Source: Pandoraea fibrosis
Lineage (GTDB): Bacteria > Pseudomonadota > Gammaproteobacteria > Burkholderiales > Burkholderiaceae
Length of the DNA: 64,000 nucleotides
NCBI RefSeq assembly: GCF_000807775.2
Contig: NZ_CP047385.1
Coordinates: 5,022,001 to 5,086,000 of the forward strand
Reading direction: 5' to 3'
In this document: piece by piece, positions 23,133-38,196 of the stretch
Position numbering within the stretch: the stretch's first letter is position 1
How the letters are laid out: each line of letters begins with the position of its first letter
Notes under the pieces: model-generated
Seen by the model: the letters and a program-made list of their open reading frames with translations, nothing else
Told to the model about the DNA's origin: nothing
The model's database searches: none
Program-made: the position numbers and the translations under genes

Positions 23133-24104
23133 TCAGCGCTTGGCCGTGTCGGTCATGAACTTGCCGGTCGGCGCTTCGGCGCCCTTCTTCTGGCGACGCG
23201 TGTTGCCATCCAACCCACCGTCCACCGCCCATTCCGCAAACACCGTCGGCCCCGGCTCGAAATCGCGCGGCTGCCATTCCGGCGTGAGAATGTCTTCGTC
23301 GGCGTAGTACTCGATGAGCGCGCCGCAAGGATTCTTGAAGTACCAGAAATACGCCGACGAGATCGGATGACGGCCCGGCCCCAACTGCGTTTCCCAGCCG
23401 CAGCGGTCGATATGCATGCCGCCACCGAACACCTCGTGAATATCGCGCACCGTGAACGCCACGTGATTGAGCCCTCGCTTGCCGTTGGGCAACGCCAGCA
23501 GGAACAGATCGTGATGGCCTCCGTGCGGCGCACAACGCATGAACGCGCCTCGCTCCGGGTAGCGATCGGACAACTCGAAGCCCAGCTTGTCCTCGTAGAA
23601 CGCCTGCGTCGCTGCCAGCGCATTCGTGAAGAACACCACATGCCCCACCTCGATGGGCTGTGCACGCTCGTACACCGGGCTGGGCGTATTCACGCGCTGC
23701 GCCGGCACACCCCACGGGTTGGTCGGCGCGCCCTGCACGTCGAGCGTGCGTTTGCCTGTCACCTCGACGCGCATCGCCAGACCGTTCGGGTCGATGCAGC
23801 CGGTCGCACCGTCCTTGAAGTAATAGCCCGGTTGATCGGCGAGCCGCTCGGCAATGGCCGCCACCTCATCGGCCGTGGTCACGCCCCACGTCACCTCGCG
23901 CAGCGTCGGCCCCTCTTCCATGGCCGGCGGCAACGACGGATCGTCGTGACGTACCGCCAGCACGCGGCAACCGTTCAGCGTTTCAAAGCGCAGGCCGTTG
24001 GCGTCGCCCGACACTTCCGTCAGTCCCCAATCGCCCAGAAAGCGGCGGCAGGTGTCGAGGTCGGTGACCCCGTAGGTAATTTGTTCGATGCCCAGAATCG
24101 TCAT
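23133..24104 (-). CDS. VOC-family extradiol-type dioxygenase
   Basis: A 323-residue two-domain vicinal-oxygen-chelate protein. The second domain carries the Fe(II)-binding pattern of type I extradiol dioxygenases: His in IEVGHVVFF, His in GLNHVAFTV and Glu in ALIEYYADE. Family members cleave catechol-type rings next to the hydroxyls. It is the last gene of the long minus-strand catabolic operon, 34 bp after the VanB-type reductase, and would open the ring after the Rieske oxygenase prepares it. Substrate unknown. Confidence 0.88.
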   Translation of the reverse strand: MTILGIEQITYGVTDLDTCRRFLGDWGLTEVSGDANGLRFETLNGCRVLAVRHDDPSLPPAMEEGPTLREVTWGVTTADEVAAIAERLADQPGYYFKDGATGCIDPNGLAMRVEVTGKRTLDVQGAPTNPWGVPAQRVNTPSPVYERAQPIEVGHVVFFTNALAATQAFYEDKLGFELSDRYPERGAFMRCAPHGGHHDLFLLALPNGKRGLNHVAFTVRDIHEVFGGGMHIDRCGWETQLGPGRHPISSAYFWYFKNPCGALIEYYADEDILTPEWQPRDFEPGPTVFAEWAVDGGLDGNTRRQKKGAEAPTGKFMTDTAKR

Positions 24105-24138
24105 GACAGTCTCGGGTAAAAGTTCGGAGTCGGAGCGA

Positions 24139-25104
24139 TCACAGATCCAGCGTCAGACGGTCGCCCTTGCAACCGGATACGCAAATCATCATGACCTTGT
24201 TCCCCGCGCGCTCGGATGCACTCAGCACCGAGTCGCGATGGTCGGGGCAACCGTCGAGCACGCGCGTCTCGCACGCGCCGCACACGCCTTCCATGCAGCT
24301 ATGTTCGGCGTCGATGCCCGCAGCCAGCAAGGTGTCGAGCAGCGTCGCACCGGCCGGCACAGCGACCTCCTTGCCAGACTTGGCGAGCGTCACGACATAG
24401 CCTTCGGACGTGGCGGGCGGCGGCGCGTCGGGTGCCGCCGCGAAGCGTTCGATATGAACGTTGGCGATGCCCGCGTCGGCGCATGCTGCCTCGAAAGCAT
24501 CGAGCATGACACCAGGGCCGCAGCAATACGCATGCGTGCCTGCCGGTTGCCCCGACAGGAACGCCGCGAGCGACGCAGGCTTGCCGTCGTGCTGATCGTC
24601 GAAGTGATAGGTGATGTCGCCGCCCAGCGCGTTCAGTTCGTCGACGAACGCCGCTTGCGGCGCCGTGCGCGCGCAATACATCAGCTTGACCCGACGGCCA
24701 AGCGCACGCAGACGCCGGTACATGCAAAGAATCGGTGTGACGCCAATACCGCCCGCCACGAGCACGGTGTGTTCGGCAGCTTCGTCGAGCACGAAGTGAT
24801 TGCGCGGCTCGGAAATGTCCAGCGTCATCCCTACGCGGAAATTGTCGTGAATGAAACGGGAGCCACCGCGGCTCTTCGGGTCAGCCAGAATGCCCAGGAC
24901 ATAACGATTCACCTCGCCCGGCGCGTTCACGAGCGAATAGCTGCGCACCAGTCCGCTGGGCAGATGCAGATCGATGTGTGCGCCCGGGGTGAAGTCGGGA
25001 AACGGCGCACTGCTGCCCGCCGCTGGCACGAGTTCGATGCTCATGATGCCGGCCGCTTCGTAACGAAGCGTGCGCACCATCGCCGACAGGTTTGACTTGC
25101 TCAT
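24139..25104 (-). CDS. PDR/VanB-type ferredoxin reductase (oxygenase electron donor)
   Basis: A 321-residue phthalate-dioxygenase-reductase type protein: an N-terminal FMN domain (RSYSLVNAPGE), a central NAD-binding domain (VLVAGGIGVTPILCM) and a C-terminal plant-type [2Fe-2S] ferredoxin with CMEGVCGAC plus a later cysteine (MMICVSG). It passes electrons from NADH to a Rieske oxygenase; the partner is almost certainly the oxygenase at 25622, two genes upstream in the same operon. The start at 25104 (MSKSNLSAMV) fits family length. Confidence 0.93.
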   Translation of the reverse strand: MSKSNLSAMVRTLRYEAAGIMSIELVPAAGSSAPFPDFTPGAHIDLHLPSGLVRSYSLVNAPGEVNRYVLGILADPKSRGGSRFIHDNFRVGMTLDISEPRNHFVLDEAAEHTVLVAGGIGVTPILCMYRRLRALGRRVKLMYCARTAPQAAFVDELNALGGDITYHFDDQHDGKPASLAAFLSGQPAGTHAYCCGPGVMLDAFEAACADAGIANVHIERFAAAPDAPPPATSEGYVVTLAKSGKEVAVPAGATLLDTLLAAGIDAEHSCMEGVCGACETRVLDGCPDHRDSVLSASERAGNKVMMICVSGCKGDRLTLDL

Positions 25105-25157
25105 AACGCCGCTCTCTGATGTTTCTGATGTTGCTTGTTCTGATGAGGTCCGCCGCG

Positions 25158-25604
25158 TCAGCCCGCAGCGGATAAATCGATATCGAGCCGGGCGAACGCC
25201 TCGATCTCCACGCGCAGTTCCGGGAATACCAGAGCGCCGACCTGCACGAGCGTCGAGCACGGATACGCGCCGCCGTTCGCTGCCACCTCCGCGAAGACCT
25301 CGCGGCGCGCACGCCCGACCTCGTCCTTGTCGGCGATGTTGGTTACGTACACCACCAGCTTGTAGACGTTGGCCAGCGTGCCGCCGCCCGCCTCGACCAG
25401 CGCGCGAATCTTGCCGAGCACCACGAGCGTTTGCTCGTAGGCGCTGAGCGGCTTGTCCGAATCGCGCGTGGCCGGGTGGGCGGTCATGCCCGACATCAGG
25501 ATCTCGTTGCCGAAACGAATGCCGTTGCTCCACGTTGCCGTGCCCAGATCGGGCACGGCCGGTGCGCGGATTCGCTCGGCCTTGAGGGGGTGATCGATTG
25601 ACAT
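25158..25604 (-). CDS. RidA-family enamine/imine deaminase
   Basis: A 148-residue Rid-superfamily protein, with the core GNEILMSGMTAHPATRD and GALVFPELRVEIEAFA where the substrate-binding arginine of RidA lies (R in LRVEIEA). Rid proteins hydrolyse reactive enamine/imine intermediates to keto acids and ammonia. In this operon it lies between the Rieske oxygenase and its reductase, and with an aspartate-dehydrogenase-like enzyme further upstream, which would make imines. That suggests the pathway substrate carries nitrogen (inference). Confidence 0.88.
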   Translation of the reverse strand: MSIDHPLKAERIRAPAVPDLGTATWSNGIRFGNEILMSGMTAHPATRDSDKPLSAYEQTLVVLGKIRALVEAGGGTLANVYKLVVYVTNIADKDEVGRARREVFAEVAANGGAYPCSTLVQVGALVFPELRVEIEAFARLDIDLSAAG

Positions 25605-25621
25605 GACCTGTCTTGCGCGGC

Positions 25622-26653
25622 TTACGCCTTGCCCTGTTGCATGCGCTCGAGTTCCGCCTTCGCCAGATTCTTCAGATGACGGCGCAGACGCACGATGCCC
25701 ATGTCGTGCTGATACAGATGCTCGTTCTGGTTGGCGTCCGGCTCCATGTCTTCGAGCATCACGCGATCCTGCTCCAGCACCGCCCAGTGACGCGCTTCGA
25801 GACGATTACGGTACAGGAAGCGCCACGTATCGCGTTGCCAGCCTTGCAGCTTGCGGCAGCGCCAGTGGAACACGGCAGCGAGCGTCGGCGAGATCGGCGT
25901 ATAGCTGCCCACGATCACGAAGTTGCCGCCGGGGCCGCCCGTCTTCGGGTACGGAATTTCGAGACGCATCCAGTGCGTGCCGGTATCGGCCCACTCGGTC
26001 CAGTCGAAGTTCACGTCGCGCTGGCCTTCCTTCTCGAAGACAAAACCACGGTCGGTGTCGCGAATGCGGAAGGCCGCCGAATTGTCCCCCTCGGCCATGG
26101 AGTGAGATTGCTTGTGCAGATACGTGCCGTGCATCGGGTCCATCACGTTATCGAGCACGTAACGGTAGTCGCCCTTCCACTCCGTGTAGCACAGGAACGA
26201 CGAGTATTCGCCGTCGGCATCGAGTTCTTCCGGCAACACGAGCGGCGGCGGCGTATCGATGTTCTCGGTCGCGTTGTAGAGCCAGATCGCATCGTTGCGC
26301 TCGACAATGTGATACGACTGCGTCGGACGCGAGCCCTCGAGCTTGCAGCCGGGGCTGCCCGGCACACGCATGACGGTACCGTCGCAACGCACTTGCACGC
26401 CGTGATAGCCGCACGCGATCCGGTCGCCCATCACAATGCCCTTCGAGAGCGGGGCGCCACGGTGCGGACAATGATCGTCGAGCGCATGCACCTGATTGTC
26501 CTGATCGCGCCAGAACACCAGCTTCTTGCCCAGACGGCGCAGCGAGACCGGCTCGCGGCCGATCATGTGCGACGGGCAAATCGGATACCACAGTTGCTTC
26601 AGGCCGCGCTCGAGAATGGCGTCGGCGGTGAGAATAGGCTGTTGCGTAGTCAT
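25622..26653 (-). CDS. Rieske [2Fe-2S] aromatic oxygenase, terminal subunit (VanA-like)
   Basis: A 343-residue terminal oxygenase. The Rieske cluster motif CPHRGAPL...CGYHG lies at about residues 62-84, and the mononuclear iron site in DNVMDPMHGTYLHKQSH near 165-180 (D, H, H). The size and single-subunit layout match VanA-type demethylases and mono/dioxygenases for aromatic acids. The electron donor is the VanB-type protein two genes downstream. It hydroxylates or demethylates the pathway substrate at the membrane-free cytoplasmic stage. Substrate not deducible. Confidence 0.92.
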   Translation of the reverse strand: MTTQQPILTADAILERGLKQLWYPICPSHMIGREPVSLRRLGKKLVFWRDQDNQVHALDDHCPHRGAPLSKGIVMGDRIACGYHGVQVRCDGTVMRVPGSPGCKLEGSRPTQSYHIVERNDAIWLYNATENIDTPPPLVLPEELDADGEYSSFLCYTEWKGDYRYVLDNVMDPMHGTYLHKQSHSMAEGDNSAAFRIRDTDRGFVFEKEGQRDVNFDWTEWADTGTHWMRLEIPYPKTGGPGGNFVIVGSYTPISPTLAAVFHWRCRKLQGWQRDTWRFLYRNRLEARHWAVLEQDRVMLEDMEPDANQNEHLYQHDMGIVRLRRHLKNLAKAELERMQQGKA

Positions 26654-26717: not shown

Positions 26718-26939
26718 TTACTCTTCGGCCAGTCGGGCGATCTGCGCGGTGTAGTTCGCCTCGGTCCACACGTCGCCGTCCTGCGGACCGGGACCGGTGC
26801 GATTCAGATAGGCCACGAGACCCGCCAGGTCATGCGTACCGGCGGCGTAGGCGCGCTCGATGGCGTCGCCCAGCAGGCTTTCGTATTGCGTCGGCTCATG
26901 ACGACGCGCTTGATGCGGTTCGAGATAACGGTCCATCAT
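26718..26939 (-). CDS. Small conserved hypothetical protein in catabolic operon
   Basis: A 73-residue acidic protein (MMDRYLEPHQARRHEPTQY...). The sequence is mostly helical, with no membrane segment, no cysteine and no metal motif. The ATG at 26939 overlaps the stop of the preceding gene (ATGA), so it is translationally coupled and surely a real gene. Proteins of this kind are sometimes annotated as recombinase-like helix-turn-helix, but I see no DNA-binding evidence. It sits directly before the Rieske oxygenase, so it may be an accessory factor of the oxygenase. Confidence 0.72.
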   Translation of the reverse strand: MMDRYLEPHQARRHEPTQYESLLGDAIERAYAAGTHDLAGLVAYLNRTGPGPQDGDVWTEANYTAQIARLAEE

Positions 26940-27277
26940 TTCCCTCCATTGCGAACCCGTTCGCGAATGCGCGCGTGTACGGGTACGAAGTCGTAAGTCG
27001 GATAGCATTCGGTGCGAAACACGCCCCAGGCCGAGCGTTCGAGTTCCACGTTGACGACAGGCAGCAGATGCGGTGGCAGTTCGAGCGTGACGATCTGGCC
27101 GAAGCCCATTGCCACCGTCCACGACACCACCTTCACGCCTGCCGGCGGAAAACGCTCCCACCATTCGGCCGCCTTCAGGCGGTCCTGAAATGCATCGAGA
27201 TTGTTCGACTGGTCGTGTCGCAGGAACACCGTCAACAACATCGTCTCGGGCTGAACGGCGGTTGCGTTCTCGCTCAT
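26936..27277 (-). CDS. Conserved hypothetical protein in catabolic operon
   Basis: A 113-residue soluble protein (TMLLTVFLRHDQSNN, WERFPPAGVKVVSWTVAMGFGQIVTLELP) with alternating hydrophobic strands, suggesting a small alpha/beta ferredoxin-like fold. No catalytic motif recognised. It is 13 bp downstream of the substrate-binding protein gene and coupled by four bases to the next small gene. Its conserved place between importer and oxygenase hints at a role in the same pathway, such as a muconolactone-isomerase-like or monooxygenase-like ABM fold, but this is a guess from shape only. Confidence 0.78.
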   Translation of the reverse strand: MSENATAVQPETMLLTVFLRHDQSNNLDAFQDRLKAAEWWERFPPAGVKVVSWTVAMGFGQIVTLELPPHLLPVVNVELERSAWGVFRTECYPTYDFVPVHARIRERVRNGGK

Positions 27278-27290
27278 GGATAGCCTCGCC

Positions 27291-28301
27291 TTATTGCACG
27301 AACTGGTTGGTGAAGAGGTCAGCCGGATTCGACTTCTCGCGGATGACCTTTTCCTGCGCATAGAAGTCCTGCAGCTTCGTCACGCGCGCCGGATCGAACG
27401 CACCCAGTCGTTGCTGGCCCGGATAGACATTGCGGGCGTAGTACGTGAGGATCTTCTCGATCTCGGCTTCCTTGCCCTTGTAGGCAGGGACTGCGGCGCA
27501 GTAATCCTTCGCCGCACCGGCCGGGTCGCGCATGATCTCCGCCACCGACTTGATCGTCGCGCGAACGAACTTGCGGATCATCTCCGGCTTCTCGGCGATG
27601 GTCTTGTCCGACGCCAGAATCGCCTGCGCCATGCCCGGGAAATACTTGTCGGTCGACGTCATGGTGATCTTCACCCCGGCGTCTTCGATGTTCTGCGCCC
27701 ACTCCGGCGTGCCCACCATCACTTCGGCCTTGCCCGTGGCCACTTGCTGCCACACACCGGCCGGGCCTGCGCCCTGAATGCGGGCATCGTTGCGCGTAAG
27801 ACCGGCGGACGCCAGCAAACCGAGCGTGGCGTAGAAGCCGGTGTCCTGATAGGCGAGCACGGTGATCGTCTTGCCCTTCAGATCGGCGGGCGACTTGATG
27901 TTCGCATCGTCACGCACGACCAACTGGTGCAGCGTGCGCCCGCCCAGCAGCGCCACGCCCTTGATGGGGATACCGTTCGGGCGCAGCACGATCGGCGTGT
28001 CGCCAAGACCGCCGCCCAGATCCCCGTTGCCGGACGCGAGTTGCTTGCCGACGTCGGCACCGCCCTGCACGGTCAGCCAACGCACCGACAGCCCTTCCGC
28101 AGCGTAGTAGCCCTTCTTCTCTGCCAGCATCAGCGGCGCAAAGGCCGGCAGGTTCGCCGGTGCCGGCAGCAGATAGGTAATCTGCTGGGTCGCTGGCTGG
28201 GCCATGACCGGCGCCGCCAGACTCGTGAGTGCTGCCACGGCACACAGGCCGGCGGCTTGACGCGCGCGGCGCGCCAACGATGCACGGAAAATCGACAACA
28301 T
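27291..28301 (-). CDS. NitT/TauT-type ABC transporter substrate-binding protein
   Basis: A 336-residue periplasmic protein with a signal peptide (SLAAPVMAQP, cleaved near residue 35). The mature protein has the SsuA/THI5-like fold: EKKGYYAAEGLSVRWLTVQGG near the N-terminus and TPEWAQNIEDAG in the middle. It feeds the permease (36506) and ATPase (37327) at the operon head. Systems of this kind import sulfonates, nitrate, pyrimidines or aromatic acids. The cognate ATPase and permease are nine genes upstream on the same transcript, an unusual split. Confidence 0.9.
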   Translation of the reverse strand: MLSIFRASLARRARQAAGLCAVAALTSLAAPVMAQPATQQITYLLPAPANLPAFAPLMLAEKKGYYAAEGLSVRWLTVQGGADVGKQLASGNGDLGGGLGDTPIVLRPNGIPIKGVALLGGRTLHQLVVRDDANIKSPADLKGKTITVLAYQDTGFYATLGLLASAGLTRNDARIQGAGPAGVWQQVATGKAEVMVGTPEWAQNIEDAGVKITMTSTDKYFPGMAQAILASDKTIAEKPEMIRKFVRATIKSVAEIMRDPAGAAKDYCAAVPAYKGKEAEIEKILTYYARNVYPGQQRLGAFDPARVTKLQDFYAQEKVIREKSNPADLFTNQFVQ

Positions 28302-28375: not shown

Positions 28376-29872
28376 TCACACCCGGCCCGCCCAGGCGAGC
28401 GGGTTGTCGTTCATGCCCCAATAGAGGCTCTTCTGATTCGTGTATTCCAGCAAACCCAGACGGCCCTTCTCACGCCCCATGCCACTCTCTTTCCAGCCAC
28501 CGAACGGCGTCGAAATCGAGAACTGCTTGTAGGTATTGATCCAGACGGTGCCCGTCTCCAGCGCACGGCCGATGCGCCAGGCACGCTTGTAGTCGCGCGT
28601 CCAGATACCCGCCGCCAGCCCGTAGACGCTATCGTTCGCCTCGGCCATCAGGTCGTCTTCGTTCTCGAACGGCAGTACCGCCAGCACCGGTCCGAAGATT
28701 TCCTCCTGCACCATGCGCGCCTGATTCGTCAGGCCCGCAATGATGGTCGGCGCATAGAAGTAGCCCTTCTCGCGGCCATCGCCCGCCGGACGCTCGCCGC
28801 CGCACAGCAGGCGGCCACCCTCTTCGAGTCCGATGGCAACGTAACGCTCGATGGACTCGCGATGCGCAGACGTGACAAGCGGCCCCATCTGCGTGTCTTC
28901 GCGCAACGGATCGCCCACGCGCAACTGCTTCGCCCCCGCCACAAGGCGCTCGACGAACGTGTCGAAGATCGCTTTGTGAACGAACAGACGCGAACCCGCG
29001 ATACACGACTCGCCCGACGAACTGAAGATGCCGTAGAGCACACCGGCGACGGCGTGATCGATGTCGGCGTCTTCGAAGACAATGGTCGGCGACTTGCCAC
29101 CGAGTTCGAGCGAGACCGGCATGAGCTTGTCCGCCGCCAGACGCGCGATGCCACGGCCGACTTCGGTGCCCCCGGTGAAGGCGACCTTCTTGACCTTGGG
29201 ATGGCGCACGAGAATGTCGCCGATGACCGAGCCTTTGCCCGGCAACACCGACAGCACGCCGCGCGGGACTCCGGCGGCTTCGCAGATGCGGCCCAGTTCC
29301 AGCGAGGCGAGCGGCGTGACTTCCGCAGGCTTGAGCACCACGGCGTTACCCGCCGCCAGTGCAGGCGCAAGCTTCTGCGCATCCGAGGCAATCGGCGAGT
29401 TCCATGGCGTGATGGCGGCCACGACACCGAGCGGCTCGTGCACGCTCATCGTCAGGTAATCGCCACGCGACGGCGTGAGCGTTTCCTCAAGCGTCTCCAG
29501 ACACGACGCGAAGTAGCGGAACGTGCCCGCCGCGCTCGCTACCAGTGCGCGCGTCTCGCTGATCGGCTTGCCGTTGTCGCGGCGTTGCAGATGCGCAAGC
29601 GCCTCGGCACGTTGCGTAATGCCGTCGGCCACGCGGTGCAGCACGGCGGCGCGCTGATGCGGCTTCAGTCCGGCCCAGTCGGCACGACGCCAGGCGGCAT
29701 CGGCCACTTCCACCGCTTCGACGGCATCCTCGGCGCCGGCCGCCGCAATCTCGGCGTTCACACTCTCGTCGGCCGGGTACAGGCTCTGATAGCGCTTGCC
29801 TGTCCCGGGGCGCCACTCGCCGCCGACCAGAATGTCGCTCGAAAACCCTTGCAGCAAATCTTGATGGCTCAT
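28376..29872 (-). CDS. NAD(P)-dependent aldehyde dehydrogenase
   Basis: A 498-residue ALDH. N-terminal cofactor region with ITPWNSPIASDAQKLAPAL, the glutamate in LELGGKSPTIVF, and the nucleophile cysteine in SSGESCIAGSR. Full length. It would oxidise an aldehyde released by the TPP-dependent decarboxylase or by ring cleavage. It follows the aspartate-dehydrogenase gene by 13 bp. The substrate class (betaine aldehyde/hydroxymuconic semialdehyde type) cannot be fixed from motifs. Confidence 0.93.
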   Translation of the reverse strand: MSHQDLLQGFSSDILVGGEWRPGTGKRYQSLYPADESVNAEIAAAGAEDAVEAVEVADAAWRRADWAGLKPHQRAAVLHRVADGITQRAEALAHLQRRDNGKPISETRALVASAAGTFRYFASCLETLEETLTPSRGDYLTMSVHEPLGVVAAITPWNSPIASDAQKLAPALAAGNAVVLKPAEVTPLASLELGRICEAAGVPRGVLSVLPGKGSVIGDILVRHPKVKKVAFTGGTEVGRGIARLAADKLMPVSLELGGKSPTIVFEDADIDHAVAGVLYGIFSSSGESCIAGSRLFVHKAIFDTFVERLVAGAKQLRVGDPLREDTQMGPLVTSAHRESIERYVAIGLEEGGRLLCGGERPAGDGREKGYFYAPTIIAGLTNQARMVQEEIFGPVLAVLPFENEDDLMAEANDSVYGLAAGIWTRDYKRAWRIGRALETGTVWINTYKQFSISTPFGGWKESGMGREKGRLGLLEYTNQKSLYWGMNDNPLAWAGRV

Positions 29873-29885: not shown

Positions 29886-30704
29886 CTAGATCACACAGTT
29901 CGCAACGCGATTGCGCAGCGCACGAATGGCGGAATAGGCGGTCAGTGCCGACGTCTTGGGGTTGTCAGGCAAGGGCTTGCCGCACATCTCCAGCGACATT
30001 TCGCCGAACGCGCCACGCGCAGCGATGTGGTGCACATTGCGTGTGGTCGCCGGATCGGCGATCAAACGCACGCGCGTCGCGTCGAGGCCAAGACCGGCGA
30101 TCGCCACGGTGGCCGCAACATTCGCATTCTTCGGATACAGACGCGCCGCGTCGCGGGCGCTGCCTTCGAAAATCACGGTCGCGGTGCTCAGCGTGGCCAG
30201 ATCGCAGACCTGTTCGGCCGGCGTACCCTGCCACCCCAACGGCGGCTTGCGTCCGGTGTAAAGCACTTCGTCCAGACCGCCTTCGCGCGCAGCGGAAATC
30301 GCGTCGATGCCACCGATGGCGCCGGAGAGCAGCGTGACGGTGGACGCGCCATCCTTGGCGGCTTGTTCCAATGCGGCGAGCAGCTCGGTGTCGGACAGCG
30401 CGCCGATCGAGGCCACCGCGCAGTCGATACCGGACCTGAGCAGCGCAACGACGTGGCCCGACAGCGCGCTGTGACCCGCGCACTCGAGCACGAAGTCAGG
30501 ACGGGTGGAAAGCGCTTGCGCCGACGACACGACCTCGGTATCGGCGCGCACGCTGCCGCGAACGCGCTCGGCAGCGTCTTCCGGCACGATCACATGGCCC
30601 ACGCGAAGGTACGGGTCGCTGGCACAGGCTTCGTAGACTTTCGAGCCGATAGCACCGAAACCAATCAGTGCGACATCAACGCGACGGTGATTCACTTCAT
30701 GCAT
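29886..30704 (-). CDS. L-aspartate dehydrogenase-like protein
   Basis: A 272-residue protein with an N-terminal Rossmann motif ([12 protein letters not shown]) and the C-terminal aspartate dehydrogenase domain, with the phrases [10 protein letters not shown] and [12 protein letters not shown] and a histidine in VHHIAARG. The family converts aspartate to iminoaspartate with NAD(P), or the reverse. It starts within the end of the TPP-enzyme gene (8-bp overlap). From memory, a Pseudomonas aeruginosa homologue sits in a similar IclR/SDR/TPP-enzyme/ALDH group. In a catabolic operon it may deaminate an amino acid-like intermediate, helped by RidA. Confidence 0.87.
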
Positions 30705-32349
30705 TCACGGGCTCCCGGACCGGCGGGCCGGCAAAGTGCGAGGCGAAGCTGCCGACCGACAGCATGTCGACTTCGAGCAGCACCGGGCCGTCGTGCGCGA
30801 AGGCGCGAGCCACGGCGCCTTCCGCCTGATCGATGGCCGTAATACGCTCGTGCTTGAGTTGCAGGCTCGCGCAGAACGCGGCGAAATCCGGTTGGTGCAG
30901 TTGCACGTAGTGACGGCGGCCGCCGTACTGCGCGTCCTGAATGTTGCGAATCACGCCATAGCATTGGTCGTTCATCAGCAGAATCACGACCGGTGCCTTT
31001 TCCTGCACGGCGGTCGCGAGTTCGCCCACGTTGACCATCAGGCCACCATCGCCGCACAGGGCCACGGTCTTCTTCGCGTTGCCTGCAAGCGCCGCGCCGA
31101 TGCCCATCTGCATGCCTTGACCGATGCCGCCGCCCAACGCGTGCACGCCTGCGCGCGGCGAGAAGATCTTCAGCAGTCGGTTGCCCCACGTGCTGTTCGA
31201 GATCGTGACGTCGCGCACCCAGTTGAAGTCGCGGCCCAGCGCGCCTTGCAGCGCTGCGACCAGTTGACGGTAAGGCCCAAGACCTTCTGCCACCTGTTTC
31301 ACGGCTGCATCGCGTGCGGCGGCAAGGTCGGCGTGGAACGCCGGATCGACCGAGAGACGGCCTTGCAAGCGATCGGCCAGCGCGTTCAGCACGCGTGCGG
31401 CGTCGCCTTGCACGAACAGGTCGTTGCGATAGCCCCGGCCGTCCGCCAGACCATCGGCGTCGACACGATACAGCGGGCGCGGAAGCCCCAGCTTGTACTT
31501 GAGCGTCTCGTTACCGCGCAGACGAGAGCCGACCACGAGCACGGCGTCGCACGTCTTGTAGAACTTCTCGACCGTGGGGTGAATATTGAACGCGCCGAGG
31601 GTGGCCGCATGATCCTCCGGCACGATGCCGCGACCTTGCACGCTGGTCACAACGCCAAAGCCCATGTCGACCAGACGCTTGACGGCAGCCTCGGCGCCAC
31701 GCGCACCGCCGCCCAGCCACAGCAGCGGGCGATGGGCCGCAGCCAGCTTGTCGGCCAGTTCGGCCACGCGGGCGTCGTCGTGCGTCGGCACCGAAATGTG
31801 CGGTGCCGCCAGATCGGTCGGCCATTCGATTTCCGCCGCCTGAATGTCGATCGGAATCTCCACGCTCACCGGGCCGGTCGGCGCCGTGAGCGCCGCACGC
31901 ACCGCTTCGCGCACGGTCGAGAGTGCCGTGTCGACGCAGCGCACGCGGTACGCGGCCTTCGAGATCGAGTTCAGCATGCTGAGCTGATCCGGCGCTTCGT
32001 GGATATACGCGAGATCGCGGTCGAGGAATTCGGTCTCGATCTGCCCGGTGATGTGCAGCACAGGCGTGCCCGCGGTGAGCGCTTCGACCATCGCACCGGC
32101 CGCATTACCGGCGGCGGTGCCCGTGCTCGTGAACGCCACGCCGAGACCGCCCGACACGCGAGCGAGGCCGTCGGCCATGTTCAGTGCGCCGGCTTCGCCG
32201 CGTGCGCCGACATAGCGGATCTTTTCGCGGCGCGCGATGGCGTCGAGAATCGGCATGTTGTGAATCGAGATCACGCCGAATGCGGTCTGCACACCGCACT
32301 GTTCGAGAAACGCCGCGATGACTTCGCCGACGGTGGTTTTGTTAGACAT
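30697..32349 (-). CDS. Thiamine-diphosphate-dependent enzyme (acetolactate synthase-like decarboxylase)
   Basis: A 550-residue TPP enzyme with the three usual domains. The activating glutamate is in [14 protein letters not shown] near residue 45; the TPP/Mg binding motif [15 protein letters not shown] with downstream MNDQCYG lies near 425-455. It resembles acetolactate synthase, benzoylformate decarboxylase and sulfoacetaldehyde acetyltransferase relatives. I start at 32349 (MSNKTTVGE), with GGAGG upstream; it overlaps the SDR stop by eight bases. It would decarboxylate or cleave a 2-keto acid in the pathway. No ilvN-type regulatory subunit is near, so biosynthetic acetolactate synthase is unlikely. 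Confidence 0.88.
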
Positions 32350-33148
32350 GTCTTGCCAAGCCTCCGGAAACATCGATATGGCTGCCCGTCGTGTAGGACG
32401 ATTGCGGGCTCGCCAGGAAAAAGATCGCTGCGGCCGCCTCTTCAGGCTTGCCCAGACGTTGCAACTGGATTTGCTTCTTCTGCGCGAGAGCGCCGGTCCA
32501 TTCCTCCCACGTCTTGCCTTCGCCCTGCTCGGCGAAGCGTCGACGCCACTGGCCCGACTCGACCAGCCCGATCAGAATGGAATTGACACGCACGCCGTCG
32601 GGCGCGAATTCGCCGGCCATCGAGCGCACGAGGTTCTGAATCCCCGCGCGCGCCGAAGAAGTCGCCACCATGTGCGGCTCGGGCTGGAGCGCAAGCAACG
32701 AGTTGACGCAGACGATAGCGGCGTCGCCCGTCTCGCGCGCCGCCTCGCGCAGCATCGGCAGGCAGGCACGCGTGGTGCGAATCACGCTGAAGTACTTCAG
32801 CTCCAACTCTTCGCGCCACGCCTCGTCGGTCGTGTCGGCGAACGTCGAGACGCGGCCCTGCCCGGCGTTGTTCACCAGCATGTCGAGACGGCCGAACTCG
32901 CGGCGAATGCGCTCGGCCAGCGCACTTACCTCGTTCGCGTCGAGCACGTCGCATTGCGCGGCAATGAGGCGCGCTTCGGGATGACGCTCGCGCAAAGTCG
33001 CCTCGGCCTGCGCGAGACGCTCCGGGTTGCGGCCGCAAATCGCGACAGCGGCGCCCGCTTCGAGCAGACGTTCGGCAGTGGCAAGGCCGATGCCGGACGT
33101 ACCGCCAGTGACCAGCGCTGCGCGCCGGGTGAGGTCGATCTTGATCAT
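32342..33148 (-). CDS. Short-chain dehydrogenase/reductase lacking canonical Tyr/Lys
   Basis: A 268-residue SDR with a sound cofactor site (TGGTSGIGLA, NNAG at about residue 91-94) and the serine in CVNSLLAL. The YxxxK motif expected near residue 160 reads TSSAR (in HMVATSSARAG): the catalytic tyrosine is threonine and the lysine arginine. This subgroup may use a different mechanism or not be a dehydrogenase. The end ASPQSSYTTGSHIDVSGG is normal. The start overlaps the IclR stop by four bases. It is part of the catabolic operon. Confidence 0.88.
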   Translation of the reverse strand: MIKIDLTRRAALVTGGTSGIGLATAERLLEAGAAVAICGRNPERLAQAEATLRERHPEARLIAAQCDVLDANEVSALAERIRREFGRLDMLVNNAGQGRVSTFADTTDEAWREELELKYFSVIRTTRACLPMLREAARETGDAAIVCVNSLLALQPEPHMVATSSARAGIQNLVRSMAGEFAPDGVRVNSILIGLVESGQWRRRFAEQGEGKTWEEWTGALAQKKQIQLQRLGKPEEAAAAIFFLASPQSSYTTGSHIDVSGGLARHV

Positions 33149-34086
33149 TTCAATCCCAGTGACTTCATGTAGGGGGTAGGTTGGCTGTCGCTGCCGGGTC
33201 GGTAATTCAGACGGTGCGACAGCGCGTCGGCCGCCTCGCGTACCTGGCCGATCAGCCCCGCATCGAGCATTGACGAATCGATGTTGGCGCGCGGAATGGT
33301 GACGGTGATCGCCGCGCAGATGCGGCCCGCGTCGTTGCGCACCGGCGCGCTCACGACACTGATGCCGCGCTCGAACGAGGATGCCGACACCGCATAGCCG
33401 CGCTCGGCGTCTTCGCGCACACGTTCGAACAATTCCGCAAGCGTCTCGGGCGTCTGCGGCGTGTATTTCTCGAGCGTCTTTTCCGGATACAGCGCGCGCA
33501 GCTCGGTCAGCGTCAGGTCACCCATCAACACGTGACCGTGCACCGTGGCATGGGCTGGCAAACGCGTACCCACGTTGACCTTGATCGAGTTGAACACGCC
33601 GGCGACGCTTTGCGCCTTGGCCACGAACACGATGTCGCGTCCGTCGCGGATCACGATGTGCGAGGTCAGTTGGGTGGCGTCGCGCAACCGTTCGATGATC
33701 GGAATCCCCAGATCGGTCAGCTCCAGCGAACTGAGGTATTCGAAGCCCAGACGCAGCACCGCCACGCCCAGACGGAAATTCTTCTCGCTACCTGCACGCT
33801 CAAGAAAGCCCATCGCTTCGAGCGTCTGCAACAAGCGGAAAACGGTCGTGCGCGGAATGCCGAGGCGTTGCGACAACTCCGGTGCACTGAATACGGCCTC
33901 ACGCGGGGAGAACTGCGTGAGAATGCGCAAACCACGCTCCAGACCCGGCACGAGATAGCGAGTCTCGGACGTCGAACCTTCGGCGAGATCCTCGCCCTCG
34001 GTCTGGGCGCCCTGAAGGCTCGGCGAGTCGTCTTCGATCTGCGCGTCGGCCACTGCCATTGCGCGCTTCGGGGTTGCCGGTGCCAT
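33145..34086 (-). CDS. IclR-family regulator of the catabolic operon
   Basis: A 313-residue regulator. An N-terminal extension rich in D, E and S (about 1-45) precedes the winged helix-turn-helix (ELSQRLGIPRTTVFRLLQTLEA) and the C-terminal IclR ligand domain (ends RANIDSSMLDAGLIG). GGAGAG stands seven bases before the ATG at 34086, two bases after the hydrolase stop. It is embedded in the operon, so it is autoregulated; the inverted repeats at 38296 and 39715 are its most likely targets. The ligand should be a pathway intermediate. Confidence 0.93.
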   Translation of the reverse strand: MAPATPKRAMAVADAQIEDDSPSLQGAQTEGEDLAEGSTSETRYLVPGLERGLRILTQFSPREAVFSAPELSQRLGIPRTTVFRLLQTLEAMGFLERAGSEKNFRLGVAVLRLGFEYLSSLELTDLGIPIIERLRDATQLTSHIVIRDGRDIVFVAKAQSVAGVFNSIKVNVGTRLPAHATVHGHVLMGDLTLTELRALYPEKTLEKYTPQTPETLAELFERVREDAERGYAVSASSFERGISVVSAPVRNDAGRICAAITVTIPRANIDSSMLDAGLIGQVREAADALSHRLNYRPGSDSQPTPYMKSLGLK

Positions 34087-34087
34087 G

Positions 34088-35062
34088 TCAACGCTCTCCT
34101 GCCGCGATGCGTTCGAGCCACGCGGCAAGCGCGGCATTCAGAACGTCGGGGGTTTCGATATACGACGCGTGTCCCGCGCCTTCTATGATTTGCAGCGGCA
34201 CGCCGGCCACGTCGGCAATCGTCTGGCAGGCCGCAGGCGGCGTGATCGCATCCTGCGCCCCCACTGCCACGGCGACCGGCCCCGCGTTCGCCGCCACGTA
34301 TTGCGTCAACTCGCCGGCCACGTCGCCGTTCGAGAGCAGATGCGTGGCCTGACGGTAACCGGCCGGTTGCACGCGCGCCATGTTCCACTTCACCCACGCA
34401 CGCGCCAGGTCTGCGGCGCCCGGTGCGACGAGGTTGTCGCTACGTTCGCGGGCCATGCCTGCGGGGCCAAGCTTGTCGAGCATCGCCAGACGGCTATCGC
34501 GTTTGCTCACCCGCACGTCAGGGTCGGCCTTGCCGTAACCGCCGGCCGGCGAGCATAGAAAGAGTCCGCGCACGCGTTGCGGTGCGCGGCTCGCGAACGT
34601 CGTCGCCATGATCGCGCCCAGCGAGTGGCCCACGAGCGCCACGCGCTCAAGCCCGAGGGCATCGAGCCAGGCTTCGAGGGCGTTGGCGTAGACGTCGGCA
34701 TGCGGTTCGGCGTCGGCGACATTCGACGTCTGTCCATAGCCGGGGGCGTCCCACGCATACAGCGAGGCGTCGAGCCCGGTGGCTTCGAACTGCGCCAGCC
34801 ATGAAGCGGCCCCCGATCCAATCCCGTGCAACATCACGACCGGCATGCCGCCCGCTGTGCGTGCGCCCGAGCAGCGATAGCCGACAGTGCCCGTGCGCGT
34901 GGCGAGGGTGTGGTACGGGAAGGCATTCAGACGCTCGCACAACGGGGCGACGGTGGCATCGTCTGGCACTTCGGACGGAAAGGCTTCGGCTTGCATGGTC
35001 TGGACTGAACGTCTGGCTTCGTGAATTCCTGCCGGTGCCGCACTTGCCAAAGACAAGCCCAT
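34088..35062 (-). CDS. Alpha/beta-fold hydrolase (meta-cleavage-product-hydrolase-like)
   Basis: A 324-residue hydrolase. Oxyanion region MLHGIGSGAASW, nucleophile elbow GHSLGA near residue 150, acid in VGAQDAI and histidine in GAGHASYIE, a complete triad. The layout matches C-C bond hydrolases of ring-cleavage pathways, and the VOC dioxygenase in the operon fits such a role. Start choice is uncertain: GGAAAG precedes GTG/ATG at 35065/35062, while a later ATG at 34996 has no ribosome site. The gap to the cupin is 33 bp. Confidence 0.88.
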   Translation of the reverse strand: MGLSLASAAPAGIHEARRSVQTMQAEAFPSEVPDDATVAPLCERLNAFPYHTLATRTGTVGYRCSGARTAGGMPVVMLHGIGSGAASWLAQFEATGLDASLYAWDAPGYGQTSNVADAEPHADVYANALEAWLDALGLERVALVGHSLGAIMATTFASRAPQRVRGLFLCSPAGGYGKADPDVRVSKRDSRLAMLDKLGPAGMARERSDNLVAPGAADLARAWVKWNMARVQPAGYRQATHLLSNGDVAGELTQYVAANAGPVAVAVGAQDAITPPAACQTIADVAGVPLQIIEGAGHASYIETPDVLNAALAAWLERIAAGER

Positions 35063-35095
35063 CACCGGACTTTCCGGGGCGGATCCCCCGGAGGC

Positions 35096-35653
35096 TTACT
35101 TCTGTTCGCGCTTGATCTTCGCGAGCGGCGAATCGGGCGGATACGTCGGCGTGACCGGCTTTTGCGAGCCAAGCATCACGCACATGAGCGCGTCTTCGTC
35201 GCCAATGTTGATTTCCGTGCGATACACGCCCGGCGGCACCGAGATCAGGTCGCGCTCACCGAGAATGGCTTCCCACGTCTCGCCATCGCGCTCGCAGATC
35301 ACCTTCATCTTTCCGCGCATCACGAAGAAGATTTCTTCGACGTCCATGTGGATGTGGCTCGGGCCGATGTTGCCGGCCGGAATCACCATCGTGGAGAACG
35401 TGAAGTGACCGGCGGGCACGGTATTGACGTCTTTGGCCACGCCGGTGCCGCCCGTGCCGACATAGCGCATTTGCGCACGGCGGTACTTCGGGTCGTAATC
35501 GGCCTGGAACTTGAGCGCGTCCCAGTCGTACTTGCGCGTGGAGAAACGCGCCACGCGCGTGTCCAGCCAGTCGCCGAATGTCTGGCCTTCGGCCTGCGTC
35601 CAGCTTTCGACGGCCTGCGGCGTCGCGGTGTTTTTAGCTTCGGCTTGCGCCAT
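35096..35653 (-). CDS. Cupin-domain protein
   Basis: A 185-residue single-cupin protein. Motif 1 is GPSHIHMDVEEIFFVMRG, with two histidines and a glutamate for a metal. Motif 2 reads VPPGVYRTEIN: the usual metal-binding histidine is replaced by arginine. It may therefore bind the metal with three ligands, or have a non-redox role such as isomerase or sensor. AAGGAG lies eight bases before the ATG at 35653. It is 42 bp after the SDR gene in the operon. Confidence 0.88.
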   Translation of the reverse strand: MAQAEAKNTATPQAVESWTQAEGQTFGDWLDTRVARFSTRKYDWDALKFQADYDPKYRRAQMRYVGTGGTGVAKDVNTVPAGHFTFSTMVIPAGNIGPSHIHMDVEEIFFVMRGKMKVICERDGETWEAILGERDLISVPPGVYRTEINIGDEDALMCVMLGSQKPVTPTYPPDSPLAKIKREQK

Positions 35654-35695
35654 GTTTGTCACTCCTTGAAGGCGTTGCGAATGAGGGGTGGCTCG

Positions 35696-36487
35696 TCAGG
35701 GCATGACGAAACCGCCGTTGACCGGCAGCACTTGCCCGGTCACGAAACGGGATGCATCGGAGAGCAGGAACAGCACCGGCCCGATCACGTCGTCGGGCAC
35801 CTGAGCGCGCGGCAATGCACGCCCCTCCAGATAGTGGCGATGACGCTCAGCCGGCACGTAGGCCGTGGCCTCGACCTCGACGAGCCCCGGCGCGATGGCG
35901 TTCACGGTGATGCCGTCGGGACCGAGTTCGCGCGCAAGCGAGCGGGTCATCGACATCACCGCGCCCTTGCTGGCGGTGTAGGCGAGCAGGCGCGGGGCAC
36001 CCCACAGCGCCGTGTCCGACGCGATGTTCACGACGCGCCCCTGACCGGAAGCGCGCAGGAAAGGCAGCGCGGCCATCGTCATGAGCCAGGTGCCGCGCAC
36101 GTTCACGTTCATGACCGCGTCCCACGTCTCGATGCTCAGTTCGGCGGCGAGCTTGCCGCCCGAGTTGGTGATCGCACCGTTGTTGACCAGTCCGTCGATG
36201 CCGCCCATCCGGTCGGCGGCGGCTTTCGCTGCCGCGTCCACCGACGCGGGGTCGCAAAGATCGAGACGCACAAACGACACGGCGTGTCCGGCCCCTTGCA
36301 ATTCGGCCGCGAGCCCCTCGCCCGCCGGAGCGGCGATGTCGGCAATCGTCACCTGCGCGCCGCGTGCGACAGCGGCACGCACGAACCCTTCGCCCAGACC
36401 ACGTGCACCGCCCGTGATCAGCAGCTTCTTGCCGTCGAGCGGCGCCAGCGAGTTGGCGTCGAGCGGGAGGATAGGCAATTCGTTCAC
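35696..36487 (-). CDS. Short-chain dehydrogenase/reductase
   Basis: A 263-residue classical SDR with all catalytic residues: TGGARGLGEG cofactor loop, NNGAITNS, serine in VVNIASDTALW and YTASK at about residue 167 (tyrosine/lysine). The end FVTGQVLPVNGGFVMP is typical. It probably oxidises a dihydrodiol or alcohol intermediate. It is third in the operon, 18 bp after the permease. It differs from the SDR at 32342, which lacks the tyrosine, so the two are not redundant copies. Confidence 0.93.
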   Translation of the reverse strand: MNELPILPLDANSLAPLDGKKLLITGGARGLGEGFVRAAVARGAQVTIADIAAPAGEGLAAELQGAGHAVSFVRLDLCDPASVDAAAKAAADRMGGIDGLVNNGAITNSGGKLAAELSIETWDAVMNVNVRGTWLMTMAALPFLRASGQGRVVNIASDTALWGAPRLLAYTASKGAVMSMTRSLARELGPDGITVNAIAPGLVEVEATAYVPAERHRHYLEGRALPRAQVPDDVIGPVLFLLSDASRFVTGQVLPVNGGFVMP

Positions 36488-36505
36488 GATGGACGTCCCC
36501 GGCGC

Positions 36506-37288
36506 TCAGGCAATGTTCATGGAAGCGCGCGGCACGTAATGCAGTGCGCGGCGCTCTAACCAGACCACGGCGGCGTAAGCCGCGATACCGATGACGGTGA
36601 GCCCGGCGATGGCGACGAACACCATCGCGGTATTGCCCTGGCCTTCGCCGTACACCAGCAGATAGCCCAGCCCCCGGTCGCCGCCGACCAGTTCGCCCAC
36701 GGTCACGCCGATCACGGCCAGCGTCGACGCAATGCGCAAACCGGCGAAGAGCGCCTGCATGGCCGAAGGAAATTCAACGAAGCGGAAGATCTGCCAGCGA
36801 CGGCCGCACAGGGCGCGCACCAGATTGACCATGTCGGGATCGACGGAGCGCACGGCGCCGAGCACGTTGATCATCACGGGGAAGAAGACGATCAGCACGG
36901 CAACCAGAATCTTCGGGTAGATGGTGTAGCCCATCCACATCACGAACAGCGGCGCGAATGCGACTTTCGGCGCGATCTGCAAGGCGAGGATGTACGGCGA
37001 GAGCATCGCTTCGGTCGACGGCGACAAGCCGAGGATCACGCCGATCAACACGCCCAGCGCCGAACCGATCACGAAGCCTGCGATCACTTCGAGCGCCGTC
37101 ACGCCGATGTGCAGCCAGAGGTTCTCGACTTGGAACATGCGCACGCCTTCGATCAGGGTCGACGACAGCTTGGGCAACACGAATTCGGGCACGCCAAACG
37201 CCGTCGGGCCCCATTGCCACACGGCCGCGAAGATCAGCAGCAACACGAAGCTGCCGGCGGTCAGTTGCGTTTTGGAAAGGGATTTCAT
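36506..37288 (-). CDS. NitT/TauT-type ABC transporter permease
   Basis: A 260-residue inner-membrane permease of the SsuC/TauC type, with about six helices and the ATPase-contact EAA loop at about residue 160-180 (VDPDMVNLVRALCGRRWQIF). It pairs with the ATPase upstream and the binding protein at 27291. The ATG at 37288 starts at the first hydrophobic helix; longer in-frame upstream starts fall in the ATPase gene. It imports the operon's substrate. Confidence 0.92.
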   Translation of the reverse strand: MKSLSKTQLTAGSFVLLLIFAAVWQWGPTAFGVPEFVLPKLSSTLIEGVRMFQVENLWLHIGVTALEVIAGFVIGSALGVLIGVILGLSPSTEAMLSPYILALQIAPKVAFAPLFVMWMGYTIYPKILVAVLIVFFPVMINVLGAVRSVDPDMVNLVRALCGRRWQIFRFVEFPSAMQALFAGLRIASTLAVIGVTVGELVGGDRGLGYLLVYGEGQGNTAMVFVAIAGLTVIGIAAYAAVVWLERRALHYVPRASMNIA

Positions 37289-37326
37289 AGCGGGATTCCA
37301 GTGTCTTGCAGTGTCGGGAGCCGGGA

Positions 37327-38196
37327 TCAGCCCAGGTGGTCGTCGCGGCCGACCTTGAGCAGTTCCATCAGATGGGCCACGTATTCGTTCATGCCCGCCT
37401 GCTTGCGACGCTCGATGGGGTTGTCGCGATGCGGCAGATCGACCGTAATTTCTTCGATGATCGTGCCCGGGCGTTCGCTCATCACGAACACGCGATCCGA
37501 CAGCGCGATCGCTTCTGCGAGATCGTGGGTAATCATCAGCGCGGTTTTGCCTTCGGCGGCGAGCATCTGCGCGAGGTCTTGCTGGAGCACCATCTTGGTC
37601 TGCGCATCGAGCGCCGAGAATGGCTCGTCCATGAGCAGCACGTCCGGCTCGACGGCGAGCGTGCGCGCGAGCGCGGCTCGCTGGCGCATGCCGCCCGACA
37701 GTTGGTGCGGGTAGTGGTTTTCGAAGCCCTTCAGATGACAACGCGCAAGCAGCGTCTTCGCGACTTCCGCACGCTCAGCCTTGCTGCGCCCACGAATCTG
37801 CATGCCGAGCTCGACGTTCTTCTGGATCGAGCGCCACGGCATGAGCAAGTCTTTCTGCAGCATGAAGGCGACTTGCTGAGACGGACCGCGCACTGGCTTG
37901 CCGGTGAGCGTGACCTGACCCTCGCTGGGCGCGTACAGACCGGCGCCCATGTTGAGCAATGTGCTCTTGCCGCAGCCGCTCGGGCCGATCAGCGAAACGA
38001 ACTCACCGGCCTTGATGCCGATGGACACGTTCGAGACGGCCGTCATTTCGCCCTTGCCCTGGCGATTTTTGAACCGACGCGTGACGCCGCGGTATTCGAT
38101 GGCGAACGGCAGGGGTGCCGCCACCGGCTGCGCCTGACGCGCGTCGGCATACGCCTCGGCGACGTTCGCGTCCTTCAATTGAATCGACCTGAGCAT
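37327..38196 (-). CDS. NitT/TauT-type ABC transporter ATPase
   Basis: A 289-residue ATPase, first gene of the operon. Walker A GPSGCGKST near residue 73, Q-loop FMLQKDLL, signature LSGGMRQR, Walker B LLMDEPFSALD and the H-loop MITHD are all intact. An N-terminal extension of about 30 residues precedes the domain. The start at 38196 is about 100 bp downstream of the inverted repeat at 38296-38313 and the TATAAT at 38333-38338. Confidence 0.93.
   Translation of the reverse strand: MLRSIQLKDANVAEAYADARQAQPVAAPLPFAIEYRGVTRRFKNRQGKGEMTAVSNVSIGIKAGEFVSLIGPSGCGKSTLLNMGAGLYAPSEGQVTLTGKPVRGPSQQVAFMLQKDLLMPWRSIQKNVELGMQIRGRSKAERAEVAKTLLARCHLKGFENHYPHQLSGGMRQRAALARTLAVEPDVLLMDEPFSALDAQTKMVLQQDLAQMLAAEGKTALMITHDLAEAIALSDRVFVMSERPGTIIEEITVDLPHRDNPIERRKQAGMNEYVAHLMELLKVGRDDHLG

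Follow-up and report, generated by a model that had tools for sequence, protein, structure and literature searches.

A 64,000-nucleotide stretch of Pandoraea fibrosis DNA (contig NZ_CP047385.1, positions 5,022,001 to 5,086,000; hereafter the window) contains a single run of 17 minus-strand genes at 23133-38196. Our results support well that this run is a catabolic operon for an aromatic compound, as the first-pass annotation of the window had claimed. The substrate is probably an N-heteroaromatic acid. We propose that the cluster encodes the uptake and full breakdown of an anionic fused-ring acid of this class, the likeliest being kynurenate (4-hydroxyquinoline-2-carboxylate) or a xanthurenate- or quinaldate-type relative, and we put the probability of this reading at about 0.45. 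The first-pass annotation had left the substrate undefined. This still holds for the open text of PubMed Central (PMC), which leaves most subscription papers outside: among the papers listed there, none links the cluster or a homologue to a compound or assigns genes for kynurenate degradation, although this is no proof of absence. The series of enzymes, however, points to an N-heteroaromatic acid, with kynurenate as the best fit.

Neighbouring genes of the run overlap or lie at most 99 bases apart (chosen starts). The first gene encodes the ATPase of an ATP-binding cassette (ABC) importer and starts at 38196, and the last encodes a VOC extradiol dioxygenase and stops at 23133. The gene order is importer ATPase, importer permease, a first short-chain dehydrogenase (SDR1), cupin, alpha/beta hydrolase, IclR-family regulator, a second short-chain dehydrogenase (SDR2), thiamine diphosphate (ThDP)-dependent enzyme, aspartate dehydrogenase, aldehyde dehydrogenase (ALDH), importer binding protein, a small protein u1, the HTH_62 protein u2, Rieske oxygenase, RidA-like protein, VanB-type reductase and VOC enzyme. 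Families were called from NCBIfam and Pfam profile scores against the curated cut-offs. The matches bore out the number, place and order of the genes in the first-pass annotation. To its list are added the two SDRs, the cupin and the IclR regulator within the run, and a porin with an operator and a hydroxylase outside it.

Core enzymes and a candidate kynurenate route

Bacterial breakdown of kynurenate proceeds through the 7,8-dihydrodiol, 7,8-dihydroxykynurenate and 5-(3-carboxy-3-oxopropenyl)-4,6-dihydroxypicolinate, and then through the propyl form, the formylethyl compound and the carboxyethyl compound. In Pseudomonas, according to the biochemistry of the early 1960s, these steps use a dioxygenase, a dihydrodiol dehydrogenase, an extradiol enzyme, an NADPH reductase, a 2-oxo-acid decarboxylase and an ALDH. 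All enzyme classes of this route are present together in the operon, and their sites are intact except in SDR2, which is non-classical. Since there is one core enzyme for each step (Rieske, SDR1, VOC, SDR2, ThDP enzyme and ALDH), kynurenate is the best fit. After those six steps, the nine-enzyme core leaves the alpha/beta hydrolase, the cupin and the aspartate dehydrogenase. We infer the substrate and every assignment of an enzyme to a step from the observed gene content, active-site residues and conservation of genes and operator. Three of the compound names of this route occur in metabolite lists that, as excerpted, give no route (PMC12649833, PMC11364965).

Active-site residues were read in two sets of homologues. 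The wide set held rows matching more than 60% of the protein length, the window's own row included and short matches left out. The nearer set held up to 84 rows per protein (VOC 84, SDR2 75, RidA 40, SDR1 30). In the Rieske oxygenase (25622..26653; PF00355 and PF19112, DdmC/VanA/KshA-like), the Rieske and iron ligands C62, H64, C81, H84, H175, H180 and D296 were found in 28/28 rows of the wide set. Together with the VanB-type flavin/ferredoxin reductase (24139..25104, chosen start; Fer2 and NAD-binding domains) and the HTH_62 partner, this oxygenase would dihydroxylate kynurenate to the 7,8-dihydrodiol. SDR1 (35696..36487) carries a canonical site, with D50, Y170 and K174 in 30/30 rows of the nearer set and, with N129 added, in 26/26 of the wide set. 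It would act as a cis-dihydrodiol dehydrogenase and form 7,8-dihydroxykynurenate. The VOC enzyme (23133..24104) is HpaD/catechol 2,3-dioxygenase-like. Its 2-His-1-Glu iron site and catalytic His and Tyr were present in 19/19 rows of the wide set; in the nearer set, H155, H198, H214, H246 and Y255 were kept in 84/84 rows and E265 in 83/84, the remaining row being unread. The roles of these residues are assigned by analogy with homoprotocatechuate dioxygenase. This enzyme would cut the C8-C8a bond to give 5-(3-carboxy-3-oxopropenyl)-4,6-dihydroxypicolinate.

Judged by its residues, SDR2 (32342..33148; PRK07062 family, NF005468 439.7 bits, cut-off 266) is not a classical SDR, as the Tyr-x3-Lys pair is replaced by Thr and Arg. 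Thr163 and Arg167, which align to Tyr170 and Lys174 of SDR1, were kept in 75/75 rows of the nearer set and R40 in 74/75; the wide set gave R40 27/27, Thr163 26/27 (Ser in one row) and Arg167 27/27. Loss of the Tyr occurs in SDRs that reduce C=C bonds, and an Asp in the cofactor loop is NAD-type whereas an Arg is NADPH-type. The NAD-type D50 and canonical site of SDR1, set beside the NADPH-type R40 and Thr/Arg pair of SDR2, thus fit one oxidising and one C=C-reducing step. SDR2 would use NADPH to reduce the side-chain double bond, and the ThDP enzyme (30697..32349; PRK07064 family, NF005470 935 bits, cut-off 495; E52, H30 and H117 in 27/27 rows of the wide set) would then decarboxylate the 2-oxo acid; both roles, as reductase and as decarboxylase, are predictions. 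The resulting aldehyde would be oxidised to 5-(2-carboxyethyl)-4,6-dihydroxypicolinate by the ALDH (28376..29872), which is BADH/HpaE-like with NCBIfam matches below the cut-offs and has N158, E256 and C290 in 24/24 rows of the wide set.

The remaining ring would be opened by the alpha/beta hydrolase (34088..34996; PF00561/PF12697), a candidate C-C (retro-Claisen) hydrolase, with the aid of the cupin (35096..35653; PF07883, 39.9 bits), and two hydrolyses would give glutarate and iminosuccinate. A hand atom balance agrees in that 5-(2-carboxyethyl)-4,6-dihydroxypicolinate (C9H9NO6) plus 2 H2O equals glutarate plus iminosuccinate. In the wide set, S125, D249 and H276 of the hydrolase were found in 26/26 rows and H100, H102 and E106 of the cupin in 27/27; the fourth ligand position of the cupin was Arg in 18 rows and His in 9. 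Finally, the aspartate dehydrogenase (29886..30704; H225 in 26/26 rows of the wide set) would convert iminosuccinate to aspartate. This protein scored over the cut-offs of NF009827 (359 bits, cut-off 226) and NF009828 and just under that of NF009826 (460 versus 479), and it matched PF01958 with 121 bits.

The aspartate dehydrogenase in the cluster of Klebsiella pneumoniae agrees with the purified enzyme KpnAspDH in both ends, in the length of 254 and in the GxGxxA motif (PMC5554190, excerpt). From this match, made on primer-derived ends, length and motif, the cluster gene appears to encode KpnAspDH. The excerpt gives relative activities of 100 percent with oxaloacetate, 3.9 with pyruvate and 3.5 with 2-ketoglutarate, a preference for NADPH, and specificity for oxaloacetate/aspartate (PMC5554190). 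The presence of an NADPH-preferring aspartate dehydrogenase among catabolic genes would be understandable if it received iminosuccinate from the pathway.

Conservation of the cluster and weighing of the substrate

A scan of named genomes confirmed at least 580 relatives of the Rieske oxygenase, and the best 80 were taken as loci, so that near relatives dominate the neighbour counts. The loci extend 10 kb each way or to the contig end, which makes the counts lower bounds, and the identity thresholds were set by hand. Among these 80 loci, u2 was found in at least 78, the VOC enzyme in 77, the ALDH and the VanB-type reductase in 73 each, the ThDP enzyme in 72, the aspartate dehydrogenase in 71, the IclR regulator in 69, SDR2 and the hydrolase in 64 each, the cupin in 48, SDR1 in 39, the RidA-like protein in 38, u1 in 37, the permease in 18, the binding protein in 7 and the ATPase in 2. 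The co-occurrence of the cluster genes exceeds chance. The RidA-like and u1 genes travel together (both in 36 loci, one alone in 3). The first-pass annotation had considered the nitrogen-handling genes unusual in an aromatic pathway. These genes are no foreign element, given that the aspartate dehydrogenase is part of the core, whereas the RidA-like gene counts as optional. Within the genus, a Rieske gene of at least 80% identity was present in 27 of 32 genomes, the window's own counted, and the nearest named genome among the matches listed was Pandoraea bronchicola (Rieske 99% identical).

The nine core enzymes (Rieske, SDR1, VOC, cupin, alpha/beta hydrolase, SDR2, ThDP enzyme, aspartate dehydrogenase and ALDH) occur together in alpha-, beta- and gammaproteobacteria, Acinetobacter and Klebsiella among them. 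With loci of all forms taken together, the core was complete in 20 of 26. In two of the six incomplete loci the sequence is truncated where a contig or record stops (G064 and L016, the ALDH and VOC genes of L016 lying at the other end of its record), and another, L106, is a second but partial copy next to a complete cluster. The other three are without VOC (G257), ALDH (G119) or SDR1 (L108) at the threshold. A second form of the cluster, in Acinetobacter, Klebsiella, Caballeronia and Novosphingobium, has a Rieske protein about 53% identical, and a ferredoxin reductase of another type with mostly a small ferredoxin replaces VanB. No RidA or NicC-like match was found in the second-form stretches read, and no ferredoxin was found in Novosphingobium. 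Further forms in Pseudosulfitobacter, Paracoccus and Nitratireductor differ in their electron-transfer genes and in a cupin that is longer and gives two matches; the Nitratireductor form also has a NicC-like monooxygenase nearby. At these three loci (L109, L110 and L115), the cluster ends with genes for an FAD-dependent oxidoreductase, a flavodoxin-domain protein and a small pentapeptide-repeat or hypothetical protein. Their oxygenase may receive electrons from a flavodoxin.

Plasmid pNK84 of Caballeronia sp. NK8 (L106, L185) carries the second-form cluster in full along with a partial copy that consists of ferredoxin, HTH_62, Rieske, ThDP and VOC genes, and the ferredoxin and HTH_62 proteins have identical accessions in both copies. 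The copies adjoin a three-subunit molybdenum hydroxylase, of a type that hydroxylates N-heterocycles among others. In Klebsiella aerogenes (L018), the cluster ALDH and ferredoxin reductase genes are each annotated as two pieces. Methyl-accepting chemotaxis genes lie near the cluster in L016 and L106 (annotated) and in 8 further loci, represented by L037 (by eye).

The strongest competitor of kynurenate is a different acid of the N-heteroaromatic class (an indole-2-carboxylate, an isoquinoline-3-carboxylate or a hydroxypyridine carboxylate, for instance), whose N-C(COOH)-C-C fragment would likewise end as iminosuccinate or aspartate. We regard this as possible but rather unlikely. The enzyme assignments and the logic of the aspartate dehydrogenase hold for any ring that releases such a fragment, the hydroxylase next to the operon is closest to 6-hydroxynicotinate 3-monooxygenase, and one cluster copy lies beside the molybdenum hydroxylase mentioned above. 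However, these acids alone do not call for the sequence of reductase, ThDP decarboxylase and ALDH. The operon resembles nicotinate degradation in its NicC-like neighbour. On the other hand, the family scans reported no NicX-, NicE- or NicF-type families for the operon genes, a comparison that does not extend to NicD, an alpha/beta hydrolase; the NicC-like gene stands apart from the core, and 45 of the 80 stretches, of only 10-kb reach, gave no match to it. A more distant parallel is the lumichrome (riboflavin) operon of Nocardioides simplex, which is also large and joins Rieske and extradiol dioxygenases with ThDP-dependent decarboxylation on an N-heterocycle (PMC12746152, excerpt). It differs in its alpha and beta Rieske subunits, its P450 and amidases, its substrate and its phylum, and the word aspartate is absent from the excerpted text of that paper (PMC12746152).

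A lignin or methoxyaromatic pathway, in which the VanA-like Rieske oxygenase would remove an O- or N-methyl group, the VOC enzyme would cut a catechol and the aspartate dehydrogenase would balance nitrogen or NAD, is improbable. It draws on the VanA_C domain, the ferredoxin-type reductase, an IclR regulator of PcaR/PobR type, and dicamba O-demethylase as the nearest solved structure by sequence to the Rieske protein. The likeness to dicamba O-demethylase and 3-ketosteroid hydroxylase oxygenases extends to the Rieske and iron ligands and to the presence of an alpha subunit only. In contrast to them, the window protein has an HTH_62 partner and extradiol and SDR genes alongside, and the matches to solved chains reach only to about residue 234 of its 343. 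Moreover, the aspartate dehydrogenase shows much the same degree of conservation as the ring enzymes. SDR1 next to the Rieske gene, with the ferredoxin and reductase of the second form, resembles a dihydroxylating system, and the family scans of the 17 genes reported neither a hydratase nor an aldolase of the kind that a simple catechol would require.

The RidA-like protein (25158..25604; PF01042) bears on a further alternative. It has Ser117 opposite the Arg of E. coli RidA in 40/40 rows of the nearer set. In other RidA proteins, a change of the catalytic Arg (Arg105/Arg107) nearly abolished imine hydrolysis (PMC4433059, excerpt). By this test, the protein is not a deaminase, since Ser takes the place of the Arg needed for imine hydrolysis; as the gene is also optional, we rejected it as an imine or aminomuconate deaminase. 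Meta-cleavage of a benzenoid amino-aromatic (2-aminophenol or aminobenzoate) with RidA as 2-aminomuconate deaminase would account for the Rieske, extradiol, ALDH and RidA-like genes standing together, and a RidA-family enzyme of that activity is described (PMC4433059, excerpt), but it is very improbable given this Ser, a RidA-like gene not found in 42 of the 80 loci, family scans that gave no 2-hydroxypentadienoate hydratase or aldolase family among the 17 genes, and a ThDP enzyme and two SDRs left without a role.

Several points weigh against kynurenate itself. In 110 cluster loci, no match was found to the kynureninase-like protein of the window's own genome, identified by eye, or to its tryptophan dioxygenase; linkage to kynurenine-forming genes would favour the route, although the route does not need it. 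The scheme gives no firm role to the hydroxylase, the RidA-like protein or u1. The ending through iminosuccinate and aspartate dehydrogenase is a proposal for this cluster; by contrast, the title of the 1961 tracer paper of Horibata et al. on the Pseudomonas pathway, cited in PMC11354673, names glutamic acid synthesis and not aspartate. The molybdenum hydroxylase on the Caballeronia plasmid was considered as a quinaldate oxidase and rejected, as its closest relative is 4-hydroxybenzoyl-CoA reductase rather than any enzyme acting on quinolines. Genes in the vicinity of the Pseudosulfitobacter cluster were likewise rejected as proof of glutarate: the acyl-CoA dehydrogenase there is no clear glutaryl-CoA enzyme and stands closer to the short-chain type, and the assignment of the CoA transferase is ambiguous. 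Finally, kynurenic acid builds up to 100 uM in rich medium in a kynU mutant of Pseudomonas aeruginosa (PMC4938989, excerpt). The nearest solved relative of the RidA-like protein is PA3499 of this species (PDB 2ig8, E 1.8e-46), and the kynU strain may carry the cluster. In P. aeruginosa the genes are presumably laid out as PA3499-PA3513. No paper naming two of six locus tags from PA3502-PA3513 was found in open PMC text; an excerpted transposon sequencing table lists PA3505 as essential under 3 of the 4 host-like conditions, which has no bearing on the substrate (PMC9732424).

For the fate of glutarate, the window's own genome has a predicted glutaryl-CoA dehydrogenase (3d6b 1.3e-224, 748 bits) 1.4 kb from the tryptophan dioxygenase gene, which is consistent with breakdown of kynurenate but not specific to it. 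Another match at 463-464 kb was rejected as this enzyme since it is nearest to isovaleryl-CoA dehydrogenase, the predicted glutaryl-CoA enzyme lying elsewhere. The CsiD route had no match in the own genome.

A bolder form of the kynurenate proposal is more tentative, and we consider it doubtful: the cluster would be the missing bacterial kynurenate gene set of soil bacteria, Klebsiella and Acinetobacter, the pyridine nitrogen would leave as iminosuccinate and be caught by aspartate dehydrogenase, and HTH_62 would be an obligatory accessory of the Rieske oxygenase. Kynurenic acid is formed from tryptophan and has signalling functions in animals. If the kynurenate proposal is right, genes would be assigned to steps that seem to be known only from old biochemistry, the cleavage of 7,8-dihydroxykynurenate included, and the occurrence of aspartate dehydrogenase inside an aromatic operon of some bacteria would be explained. 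The cluster would also make it possible to recognise bacteria able to remove this acid, and the family PF20552 would obtain its first role.

An HTH_62 protein beside the Rieske oxygenase

The first-pass annotation had counted two small proteins of the run as unknowns. One of them, u2 (26718..26936), is a member of the Pfam family PF20552 (HTH_62), with 105.9 bits against a curated cut-off of 27, and u1 is left without a family match. Co-occurrence was counted at E<=1e-60 for the Rieske profile and E<=1e-8 for PF20552. Among 397 Pseudomonadota genomes, the Rieske type was found in 17 and PF20552 in the identical 17, each in single copy. The HTH_62 match lay at most 2.8 kb from the Rieske match in 17/17 and within 100 bases in 14/17; in one genome (G397) it is interrupted by an internal stop codon. 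The hits of this sample span 13 of 231 genera, and the genomes with both are related to one another, so they do not amount to 17 independent events. Among 399 genomes of the order, both were found in the same 13. When the two samples, with 7 genomes in common, were pooled, 23 distinct genomes had both and none had one alone. The copy numbers agree imperfectly: in G576 a single HTH_62 match accompanies three Rieske matches, while G046 has two of each. No PF20552 match was found in 14 control genomes.

Its presence in the same genomes, and always close by, makes HTH_62 an apparent partner dedicated to this type of Rieske oxygenase. It stays with the one oxygenase while transporters, regulators and reductases vary, which suggests that it is a protein partner of the Rieske oxygenase. 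The name of the family suggests DNA binding (recombinase-like fold). No paper with the terms PF20552, HTH62 or recombinase-like helix-turn-helix was found in open PMC text. What emerges is a real and conserved catabolic system, matched to no described substrate in the papers listed, and the link between PF20552 and the Rieske type is new.

The AlphaFold-type model of u2 has three helices with a predicted local distance difference test (pLDDT) score of 87.9, and its structure comparison gave no informative match. At one locus (L023), two Rieske forms lie adjacent, each with its own HTH_62. The other small protein, u1 (26936..27277), had no NCBIfam match and nothing above any Pfam cut-off. Its AlphaFold2 model (mean pLDDT 81.7) shows beta-alpha-beta-beta-alpha-beta with further helices. 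A function of u1 from the fold was rejected, since only the common ferredoxin-like alpha+beta fold was recognized, with muconolactone-isomerase-like chains amid many unrelated rows.

Importer, porin, operator and neighbouring genes

The importer genes are split in the operon, as the first-pass annotation had described. The ATPase (37327..38196; taurine/sulfonate/nitrate type, with NCBIfam SaoA/TauB/NtrCD-type matches under the equivalog cut-offs) and the permease (36506..37288, chosen start; SsuC/TauC type by NCBIfam family match) stand at the head, and the SsuA-like binding protein (27291..28301; TIGR01728 86 bits, below cut-off) stands in the middle. Elsewhere the three sit together, being adjacent in L109, L110, L115, L073 and L076; other loci hold other transporter genes. 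A porin gene (38502..39611, minus strand, chosen start; named by eye and from annotated relatives) lies upstream of the operon on the same strand. The porin and the importer would take up kynurenate across the outer membrane and into the cell.

A putative 16-base operator palindrome, GTTTCACATATGAAAC, lies before the operon at 38297..38312, and a second, GTTTCACAGGTGGAAC, lies before the porin at 39716..39731, both on the minus strand. Both are embedded in longer stretches that are similar to each other. Across the genome, exact matches to the pattern GTTTCACANRTGRAAC are confined to these two sites; with up to 2 mismatches it gave 9 forward and 7 reverse matches, versus 4 and 2 for the reversed control. 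The palindrome (at most 2 mismatches) was found before both the operon and the porin in 21/21 Pandoraea genomes, a set made up of the own genome plus 20 taken from the 26 relatives in the genus with the Rieske gene. This conservation suggests that the operon and the porin form one probable regulon. The IclR regulator within the operon (33145..34086; PcaR/PcaU/PobR-like, TIGR02431 174.5 bits, cut-off 284.75) would control both through the palindrome, a pairing predicted from sequence.

Divergent from the porin, on the plus strand, are a NicC-like FAD monooxygenase (40074..41231, start by eye) and, directly behind it, a second IclR-family regulator (41287..42150). The monooxygenase matched 6-hydroxynicotinate 3-monooxygenase (PDB 5eow) at E 6.1e-77 and 262.7 bits, and it may serve as a side-entry or late hydroxylase. 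It was found in 20/21 genus stretches and in at least 35 of the 80 named loci, a lower bound because loci reaching 10 kb each way would miss the arrangement of the window itself. No NicC-like match was found in the Klebsiella and Acinetobacter stretches read. Between 22000 and 42000, Rfam gave no match at gathering scores. The promoter scan gave 1 site versus 2.5 in shuffles. Beyond the end of the operon, the minus strand encodes an autotransporter-like protein of 1493 residues at 17120-21601, in which two long similar halves were seen by eye.

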